64,000 nucleotides of DNA, from contig NC_015914.1 in assembly GCF_000222485.1 (NCBI RefSeq), positions 3,261,001 through 3,325,000 on the forward strand, read 5' to 3'. Source of the DNA: Cyclobacterium marinum DSM 745. Lineage in GTDB: Bacteria > Bacteroidota > Bacteroidia > Cytophagales > Cyclobacteriaceae. A program made the translations under genes and the position numbers. Below are positions 8,330 to 51,177 of the stretch, one piece after another; the first letter of the stretch is position 1; each line of letters begins with the position of its first letter. The notes beneath the pieces are model-generated. The model was not told the origin of the DNA, made no database searches, and worked only from the letters and a program-made list of their open reading frames with translations.

Positions 8330-8929
8330 ATGAGAAATGTTAAAACCGGAGACTATGGTGCAGCAGTAGCAAAAATTGATGCCGCCAACGCAGAAGATCC
8401 AAACCTTGAAGAAGTAAAAGGAGAGAAAGTACCCAAAGAACTGTTGTATGGGAAGCGGATGGCCGACATGATGGAAGAAACTTACCCGGAAGCAAATGAA
8501 GTATTAAAGCTAGCTGCGAGAAGTCAGCATATTCGGCGTTGGGAAATTCCAAGGGATTCCTATCCTATGGACCGAAAAGGCTATTTGCTATGGAGAACCA
8601 ACCTCAAGGGGTTTCATGCCAATCTTGCCAAGGAAATCTTGGAAAGCAGCGGTTATGACGCTTCCGCATTACAAAAAATTGATGATTTAATTAATAAACG
8701 CAGATTGAAATCAGACCCTGAGACGCAGGCGCTGGAGGATGTGGTATGTCTGGTGTTTTTAAAATACTATTTTGATGACTTCATTGCGAAGCACGAAAAT
8801 GAGGAAGAAAAACTCATTGACATCCTACAGAAAACCTGGAAAAAGATGTCTCCAAAAGGCCATGAAAAAGCCTTGTCTTTAAACCACTCAGAGCGAGCAT
8901 TGGCTTTGATTAACAAGGCTTTGGCTTAG
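8330..8929 (+). CDS. DUF4202 family protein
   Basis: A 199-residue soluble protein; the ATG at 8330 is preferred to the TTG at 8312 because MRNVKTGDYGAAVAKIDAANAEDPN begins as this family does. Recognisable DUF4202 blocks are PKELLYGKRMADMM, LAARSQHIRRWEIPRDSYP and MDRKGYLLWRTNLKGFHA, followed by VVCLVFLKYYFDDFIAKH. The conserved His and Arg in QHIRRW look like an active or binding site, but the activity of the family is not known to me. There is no signal peptide. It is convergent with the isomerase gene, with only 3 nt between the two stops. Confidence 0.8.
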   Translation: MRNVKTGDYGAAVAKIDAANAEDPNLEEVKGEKVPKELLYGKRMADMMEETYPEANEVLKLAARSQHIRRWEIPRDSYPMDRKGYLLWRTNLKGFHANLAKEILESSGYDASALQKIDDLINKRRLKSDPETQALEDVVCLVFLKYYFDDFIAKHENEEEKLIDILQKTWKKMSPKGHEKALSLNHSERALALINKALA

Positions 8930-33471: not shown

Positions 33472-34371
33472 ATGCAAGAAAAAGAAGGATTAGTAAGGAT
33501 TGATGGTAAAAAAACTGCTGCGACGATTAAAGATGAAATAGCTGCGGAAGTAGTTTTACTTAAGAAAAATAATAAAAAAACACCTCACCTGGCTGCGATT
33601 TTAGTAGGAAACGATGGGGCCAGCCAAACTTATGTAGGGGCAAAAGTGAAGGCTTGTGAAAAAGTTGGTTTTGGTTCTACCTTAGTACGTTTGGAAGAAA
33701 CTGTTTCAGAGGAAGAGCTGCTGAATGAGGTAGAGAAAATTAATGACAATCCGGACATTGATGGCTTAATTGTGCAACTGCCTTTGCCGGATCACATTTC
33801 AGTAGAAAAGGTTACGGCTAAGATAAAACCTGAAAAAGATGTGGATGGCTTTACTCCTGCAAATGTTGGTAGAATGACCTTGGGATGGCCGGCTTATATT
33901 GCAGCTACTCCTTACGGAATTGTGGAGTTATTGAAAAGATATGAAATTGAGACTTCCGGAAAGCATTGTGTAGTGATTGGCAGAAGCCATATTGTAGGTT
34001 CTCCAATGAGTATATTGATGGCCAGAAATGCCTATCCGGGTAACTGTACTGTTACCATTACTCACAGTAGGACACAGAACTTGAAAGATATTGCACGTAG
34101 TGCAGATATACTGATTGTAGCGATTGGGAGAGAAGGTTTTGTTACCGGTGACATGGTCAAAGAAGGTGCCGTAGTGATTGATGTAGGCATACACCGAATC
34201 CCCGATGCTAGTAAAAAGACTGGTTTTCGATTGGTTGGTGATGTCAACTTTGAAGAGGCAGCAGCCAAAGCTTCAGCCATCACTCCTGTACCGGGAGGAG
34301 TAGGTCCGATGACCATTGCTTCCTTATTGTACAATACCTTACTGGCAGCCAAAGGGGAAGTTTACCAGTAG
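33472..34371 (+). CDS. folD: Bifunctional methylenetetrahydrofolate dehydrogenase / methenyl-THF cyclohydrolase
   Basis: Interconverts one-carbon folates that feed purine and methionine synthesis. 299 residues. Catalytic Tyr and Lys lie in [13 protein letters not shown], the second site in [12 protein letters not shown], and the cofactor site in [24 protein letters not shown] is the C-terminal family block. PEKDVDGF links the two domains. The lepA-folD-queE-OmpA genes lie in one direction with gaps of 86, 54 and 6 nt. Confidence 0.96.
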
Positions 34372-34393
34372 GGGATTTTAATTAATATAAACA

Positions 34394-34428
34394 AAGCGGT
34401 TCAATTACCCGCTAGACCAAAAATTATG
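34394..34428 (+). promoter_or_regulatory. Candidate preQ1-I riboswitch overlapping the queE start
   Basis: A 5-bp stem AGCGG (34395-34399) / CCGCT (34409-34413) encloses a loop TTCAATTAC that begins with the conserved GGTTC run and leads to CCC. An 8-nt A-rich linker AGACCAAA follows. Then AATT (34422-34425) can pair with loop AATT (34403-34406), forming an H-type pseudoknot directly beside the ATG at 34426. This matches the preQ1-I class layout (P1, C-containing loop, A-rich L3, P2 at the translation start). The second loop is shorter than in Bacillus. QueE makes a precursor of preQ1, so feedback control is sensible. Confidence 0.5.
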
Positions 34429-35055
34429 AAAGACAATAAAAAGACGCTTTCCAATGGGCAATATTTACCATTGATGGAAGCTTTCTATACCATACAAGGT
34501 GAGGGGATGTTCTCCGGACAACCTGCCTATTTTATACGCTTGGGTGGATGTGATGTCGGATGTGTATGGTGTGATGTGAAGGATTCATGGGATAAAGAAA
34601 GATGGCCAAAAGTGGCCATTGAAGATATTGTGGCAGAAGCAGCTTCTTATCCCGCCCGACTAGTAGTTATCACTGGAGGAGAACCTCTAATGCATGATTT
34701 AGCTCCTTTGACCCATCTGTTAAAAGAAGAGGGTTTTCAAATAAACATGGAAACATCAGGGGCCCATCCTTTTAGTGGGACGATTGACTGGACTTGTCTT
34801 TCACCTAAGAAATTTAAGCAGCCATTGCCCGAAGTTTATGCGCATGCAGACGAGTTAAAAGTAGTAGTTTACAATAAAAGTGATTTTGAATTTGCGCTAA
34901 AACATGCCAAATTGGTCAATGAGAAATGTCATTTACTCTTGCAACCGGAATGGTCAAAGGCAGGTAAAATGACAAATTTGATCATTGATTTTGTGAAGGA
35001 AAATCCAGCATGGAGGGTTTCTCTTCAGACCCATAAATACATGGAAATACCCTAA
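34426..35055 (+). CDS. queE: 7-carboxy-7-deazaguanine synthase (QueE)
   Basis: A radical SAM enzyme converting carboxy-tetrahydropterin to 7-carboxy-7-deazaguanine on the way to preQ1 and queuosine in tRNA. 209 residues. The cluster-binding cysteines are Cys42, Cys46 and Cys49 in GGCDVGCVWCD (Cx3Cx2C), after the substrate block YTIQGEG. VVITGGEPLMHD is the SAM-binding GGE motif. QueD is encoded 16 kb downstream; queC and queF are not in the window. The ATG lies in the pseudoknot of the proposed riboswitch. Confidence 0.95.
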   Translation: MKDNKKTLSNGQYLPLMEAFYTIQGEGMFSGQPAYFIRLGGCDVGCVWCDVKDSWDKERWPKVAIEDIVAEAASYPARLVVITGGEPLMHDLAPLTHLLKEEGFQINMETSGAHPFSGTIDWTCLSPKKFKQPLPEVYAHADELKVVVYNKSDFEFALKHAKLVNEKCHLLLQPEWSKAGKMTNLIIDFVKENPAWRVSLQTHKYMEIP

Positions 35056-50757: not shown

Positions 50758-51177
50758 ATGGTACACGTATGTCGGAAAGAGCATTTTAATGCGGCCCATA
50801 AATTATGGAATCCGAAATGGTCTGAAGAAAAGAATAAATCGGTATTTGGTCCTTGTTCCAATGCAAATTGGCATGGACATAATTTTGAACTGATTGTCAC
50901 GATCAAAGGGAGACCTGATGAGGATACTGGTTTTGTGGTAGACCTAAAGCAGCTGAGCAACCTGATCCGAAAGGAAGTAATAGATAAAGTAGATCATAAA
51001 AACCTTAATGTAGACGTCCCTTTTATGGAAGGGAAAATGGCAAGCTGTGAGAATTTGGTCATGGAATTTTGGAAAATTCTTCAGCCGCAAGTGGATAAAA
51101 TGGTTAAGGATGGAGGGCTTTATAAGCTCACCTTGTATGAAACGCCGAGGAATTTTGTAGAATATTATGGGGAGTAG
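50758..51177 (+). CDS. queD: 6-carboxytetrahydropterin synthase (QueD / PTPS family)
   Basis: Forms carboxytetrahydropterin from dihydroneopterin triphosphate for queuosine synthesis. 139 residues. Zinc ligands: His14 in FNAAHKLWNP, then His-Gly-His in CSNANWHGHN. The catalytic cysteine precedes HGH by five residues, a spacing closer to pyruvoyl-tetrahydropterin synthases than to E. coli QueD. VDHKNLN and LYETPRNFVEYYGE give the catalytic His/Glu blocks. Presence of queE in the window supports QueD over a biopterin role. It starts at ATG 50758 and is followed by lpxB. Confidence 0.85.
   Translation: MVHVCRKEHFNAAHKLWNPKWSEEKNKSVFGPCSNANWHGHNFELIVTIKGRPDEDTGFVVDLKQLSNLIRKEVIDKVDHKNLNVDVPFMEGKMASCENLVMEFWKILQPQVDKMVKDGGLYKLTLYETPRNFVEYYGE

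Follow-up and report, generated by a model that had tools for sequence, protein, structure and literature searches.

A probable type III-like preQ1 class I riboswitch acting without a Shine-Dalgarno site on queE in Cyclobacterium marinum and its relatives

Introduction

Type III of the class I preQ1 riboswitches, reportedly defined by McCown in 2014, is the described system with which we compare a small RNA element at queE, which serves the synthesis of queuosine, a tRNA base. In the Escherichia coli yhhQ leader (PDB 8FZA), residues U7, C8, U11, A13 and C14 make ligand or ceiling contacts in the crystal structure, and the type III loop is described as very tight, with fewer nucleotides than in types I and II (PMC10622847). 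Type III has been described as almost confined to Pseudomonadota, and types I and II are reported from Bacteroidota too. The preQ1 classes II and III are approximately two to three times larger and adopt other folds, according to a 2024 review (PMC11625349). The same review sees a future challenge in riboswitches of mRNAs that lack a Shine-Dalgarno site, whose existence it predicts, and states that searches lose power where this site is missing (PMC11625349). Here, we describe a motif in front of queE in the Cyclobacteriaceae, which probably represents such a riboswitch.

Results

The window, that is the whole stretch of DNA analysed here, comprises 64,000 nt of Cyclobacterium marinum DSM 745 (Bacteroidota, order Cytophagales, family Cyclobacteriaceae; NC_015914.1, 3,261,001-3,325,000), and positions below refer to it; counts for the genus refer to Cyclobacterium genomes. 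The best solved relatives of its QueE homologue are 7-carboxy-7-deazaguanine synthases (6nhl, 1.2e-38; 4njg, 1.8e-28), and the protein scores under all five NCBIfam QueE equivalog cut-offs. The folD-queE gap (34372-34425, 54 nt) contains, running on into the start codon, AGCGG-TTCAATTAC-CCGCT-AGACCAAAA-ATT-ATG. A stem, a loop, an A-rich linker and a pairing between loop and tail, which a sequence-only reading had described in this gap, are all present and form a 31-nt motif (34395-34425). Its stem has 5 bp and its loop 9 nt; an A-rich tail follows, and a pseudoknot of 3 bp reaches up to the queE ATG:

33472..34371, + strand: folD, the upstream gene, on the same strand as queE
34395..34399, + strand: P1, 5' strand AGCGG, pairs with 34409-34413
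34400..34408, + strand: 9-nt loop TTCAATTAC (RNA: UUCAAUUAC)
34403..34405, + strand: P2, 5' strand AAU, pairs with 34423-34425
34408, + strand: candidate cytosine for ligand specificity, equivalent to E. coli C14 (register set by eye against E. coli)
34409..34413, + strand: P1, 3' strand CCGCU
34414..34422, + strand: A-rich linker L3, including A-6 (34420) and the A27 equivalent (34422)
34423..34425, + strand: P2, 3' strand AUU, directly before ATG; 34423 is A-3
34426..35055, + strand: queE homologue, 209 aa, 7-carboxy-7-deazaguanine synthase as judged from solved relatives

The A-run spans 34419-34423 and is followed by TT and the ATG at 34426. That the loop is shorter than in Bacillus, as had been remarked, agrees with the very tight loop given as a type III trait in the structural work (PMC10622847).

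The Rfam model RF00522, with which the motif was to be checked, yielded nothing at E<=10 in the leader region; genome-wide, it gave 17 sub-threshold matches, none of them at the motif, and no match in the 20 of the 28 Cyclobacteriaceae loci that were scanned. The E. coli yhhQ leader (L130 5177-5220), an aptamer with a crystal structure (PMC10622847), was likewise unmatched, even at E<=10. The silence of RF00522 is therefore not evidence against the motif, and an Rfam match was dropped as a membership test, being uninformative after this control. As the model is blind to the E. coli leader, type III members of the preQ1-I riboswitches are probably under-annotated. Rfam scans of the window also gave no match to preQ1 classes II and III.

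The motif is found directly before queE in 12/12 Cyclobacterium genomes. The proposed layout, queE as the target gene and a site near the start codon all hold. Over the 66 pairs of these 12 same-genus genomes, mean ungapped identity is 93.6% within the 31-nt motif, as compared to 41.8% over the 25 nt that precede it and 51.6% over the 25 nt that follow the ATG. In the best 80 named queE loci, from 576 relatives found, 23 carry the motif, with Cyclobacterium, Belliella, Litoribacter, Anditalea, Lunatimonas, Aquiflexum and Nitritalea among the carriers and a GCAG form in ten Roseivirga-labelled loci, one Marivirga MAG and one Cytophagia MAG; the other 57 are without it by a pattern requiring a GCRG stem. 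Two models, R1 (built from 26 sequences) and R2, were both trained on Cyclobacteriaceae motif sequences. Over 291 genomes of the order, R1 gave 29 matches, 28 of which lie in the Cyclobacteriaceae and have queE directly downstream (28/28 in the family, 28/29 overall); the one remaining match (L129) lies outside the family, in a locus without queE. Fourteen of the 42 family genomes in this draw gave no R1 match: three have no queE, one (G102) has the motif and ten have queE without it. The motif is thus present in 29/39 queE-bearing Cyclobacteriaceae genomes of the draw and missing from 10/39.

With R2, 39 of 395 genomes of the phylum had a match at E<=0.1, including six family genomes with queE adjacent in each. 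Outside the family, 24 loci were read from the best 30 of the 39 (best score 29.5 bits) and none pairs the motif with a que gene; one locus (L161) has queE- and queD-like genes nearby, and the motif layout is absent from it. The spread outside the family by R2 was taken as chance, there being no motif beside a que gene among the loci read, as was a weak second R2 match in the window, which lies inside an ORF (8648-8682, 22.5 bits). Viral contigs gave 0 matches to one exact motif pattern.

Conserved pairing in the queE upstream regions of relatives, which the sequence-only reading had put forward as a check, was indeed found, with some compensation in both P1 and P2. The 62 loci provide 41 distinct variants, all of which (41/41) have standard pairs at P1 positions 2-5. 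Pair 4 is GC in 31 and AU in 10, and pair 1 is standard in 37/41 and GC once. The loop has 9 nt in 36/41 variants, on which the P2 counts are based, and 10 nt in five. All three P2 positions are paired in 36/36, with the register set per clade by pairing and so not blind: the GCAG clade was counted in its own register, one nt different, chosen because it pairs. Position 9 is AU in 22, GU in eight and CG in six variants, position 10 is AU in all 36, and position 11 is UA in 30 and AU in six. In alignment A2 (MAFFT), which leaves the GCAG clade one nt out of P2 register so that its P2 is counted as partly unpaired or gapped, 97.4% of cells are paired, as compared to at most 53.4% when slid. A possible fourth pair, 8-31, is C-G in four, G-C in five, U-A in four and U-G in one variant, and not standard in 22/36. 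A 4-bp AATT/AATT pairing had been proposed; it is present in the window, but just three pairs (34403-34405/34423-34425) are kept in relatives, and in the remaining pair (34406/34422) the loop position is T, C or A. The sequences are related, and the covariation reflects few independent events, perhaps a single one for each changed pair. Overall, the element forms an H-type pseudoknot with P1, P2 and an A-rich L3, as in class I, and covariation is modest.

The cytosine before the 3' strand of P1 is present in 41/41 variants, where the search pattern required a C, and is also invariant in A1, pattern choice aside. The loop ends are UU and AC in the window, and some variants have UC, UG, UA or GC/UC. 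In 5/41 variants (L122, L125-L128), U7 is replaced by C or G and C8 by G, with the AAU/AUU pairing kept, and A13 is changed in a few variants; all three bases matter in E. coli. In these five and in L183 (C/G at 7, G at 8), a fourth P2 pair, G-C, is possible, and L183 also carries U for A13.

The distance from the end of the A-run to an ATG is 2-6 nt in 56 distinct leader contexts. An A is found at -3 in 35/63 and at -6 in 49/63 matches (not deduplicated). A TAnnTTTG box, which we take to be the Bacteroidota -7 element, lies no more than 90 nt before the motif in 30/63 loci, and folD is upstream in 34/63. Leaving out L071, a locus too short for the filter, the 63 loci comprise 33 with folD alone, 29 with the box alone, one with both and none with neither. 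Since folD-led and box-led loci both carry the motif, it stays with queE across two gene arrangements.

By Pfam profile, QueF was detected in 0/12 Cyclobacterium genomes and in 0/29 motif-bearing genomes; it was present in 2/42 Cyclobacteriaceae genomes (G255, G279), both without the motif. QueC matches occur in 42/45 family genomes, 40 of them over the cut-off, and except in G130 they are weak (<=32.4 bits) and lie in longer frames; the match in G000 was rejected as it is argG. G130 has a 185-aa QueC-like ORF, the only QueC-like gene among the motif-bearing genomes tested. This ORF overlaps a 343-aa ORF without a Pfam or NCBIfam family (L138 1288-2866); a reading of this second gene as TGT-like was dropped, as the scans assigned it no family. 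TGT is present in 17/17 Cyclobacteriaceae genomes tested. The genome of the window has a YhhQ-family transporter and two genes of the PTPS/QueD family. Neither of these two reaches the QueD cut-off; one lies at 50758-51177 of the window and the other beside FolE elsewhere. With QueF absent and QueC nearly absent, the known route to preQ1 is not available in motif-bearing genomes. These absences are by Pfam profile, and replacement enzymes are possible: either the last steps to preQ1 are carried out by enzymes of an unrecognised kind, or a different 7-deazaguanine serves as the ligand.

Discussion

The two helices P1 and P2, the conservation of loop and tail, the association of the motif with queE and its fixed place at the start codon emerge from the comparison of related sequences, which on this level supports the interpretation as a preQ1-I riboswitch. 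We consider it likely that the motif is a type III-like class I preQ1 riboswitch, an H-type pseudoknot, which turns off queE translation without a Shine-Dalgarno site. An abundant 7-deazaguanine, most likely preQ1 and possibly preQ0, would pair with cytosine 34408 of the loop, between P1 and P2, and lock the pseudoknot, whereby the A-run, including A-3 and A-6, would be buried next to the AUG. The buried start region would block initiation and queE would be off, the direction of the response to preQ1 being inferred. Initiation is probably what the motif acts on, as the A-run is too close to the ATG for a terminator to fit in between. A study of Flavobacterium johnsoniae found initiation to be promoted by A-3, by A-6 and by a start region free of structure (PMC6847099). 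The motif would bury AAUU where E. coli buries the Shine-Dalgarno sequence AAGG, which would suit ribosomes that do not read Shine-Dalgarno sites.

Could this be a chance hairpin next to the A-rich start region that is usual in this phylum? The folding energy, calculated without pseudoknots, is ordinary (z -0.83), and A-rich start regions are common in one Bacteroidota member that has been studied (PMC6847099). This reading is already contradicted by the loop conservation, the gene specificity and the covariation, and by a descriptor (five Watson-Crick pairs, a TT.....AC loop, a tail of four or more A residues and a 3-bp P2), composed after the motif was seen, which matches once in the window and not at all in 100 first-order random windows; we regard it as extremely improbable. 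A protein-binding RNA or DNA site, such as an operator or the target of a translational repressor, with the inverted repeat as recognition element, would explain why AGCGG/CCGCT is found at a constant place, and the riboswitch ligand is itself a candidate. The pseudoknot pairing of P2 is, however, kept and compensated, and the TAnnTTTG box, where present, lies upstream of the motif and places it inside the transcript, making a protein site rather improbable.

The same aptamer fold could also serve another ligand, with feedback sensing of CDG, the QueE product, or of a further 7-deazaguanine. The missing CDG to preQ1 route, with full-length QueC lacking apart from the QueC-like ORF of G130, and the changes at loop positions 7 and 8 in some variants would fit this. 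Yet the bases contacting preQ1 in E. coli are kept in most variants, and preQ1 salvage is possible with a YhhQ-family precursor transporter and TGT present; we therefore judge another ligand unlikely, though less so than a protein site.

Returning to the type III-like preQ1 riboswitch, one might tentatively speculate, at somewhat less than even confidence, that a Shine-Dalgarno-independent class I preQ1-type switch on queE, in a family without recognisable QueF and, with one exception, QueC, marks either unrecognised enzymes leading from CDG to preQ1 or a ligand change to CDG or another 7-deazaguanine. Such a ligand change, if true, would be a new riboswitch specificity. The motif also draws attention to a gap in queuosine synthesis, as far as it is known, in the Cyclobacteriaceae, in which queE and TGT persist and QueF and QueC are mostly missing. 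Our searches of the open PMC literature brought up neither the motif nor any preQ1-I riboswitch that works without a Shine-Dalgarno site; Bacteroidota members may already be included in the published type III alignment. At 31 nt, the queE motif is a concrete candidate for a Shine-Dalgarno-free switch and small enough for synthesis, ITC and crystallography.

With preQ1 classes II and III, the motif would share translation control and preQ1 as ligand. Types I and II of class I (RF00522) have in common with it the H-type pseudoknot, the specificity cytosine and an A-rich L3, whereas their loop is longer and RF00522 does not match the motif. The closest likeness is to E. coli type III. The yhhQ leader reads UUGGG-UUCCCUCAC-CCCAA-UGGUUAAUC-AAAAA-GG-UACAAU-AUG and a Cyclobacterium relative (L013) AGCGG-UUCAAUUAC-CCGCU-UAAUC-AAAAA-UU-AUG; this match rests on an alignment by eye, because R2, a model of the motif, fails to recover the E. 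coli leader. Both have a 9-nt loop UUC-NNU-NAC with 6/9 bases identical, and among these six are U7, C8, U11, A13 and C14, the bases with assigned ligand or ceiling contacts in the E. coli structure (PMC10622847). They also share a 5-bp P1 with G-C at the loop, UU following P1 and AC preceding the P1 3' strand, an A-rich L3 with AAAAA and a 3-bp P2 just before the start site. The gene downstream is queE here and yhhQ there, in Bacteroidota and Pseudomonadota, respectively. The type III trait of a pyrimidine-rich loop pairing with an AAGG Shine-Dalgarno sequence is not found in the queE motif, and we therefore call it type III-like rather than filing it as type III. P2 consists of A-U pairs here and of C-G pairs in E. 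coli, and AAUU, paired with AAU or GAU, stands in place of AAGG. Loop positions 9-10 change from CC to AA, matched by a change of the tail from GG to UU, which suggests how paired changes can direct an aptamer of proven design to AAUU instead of AAGG.
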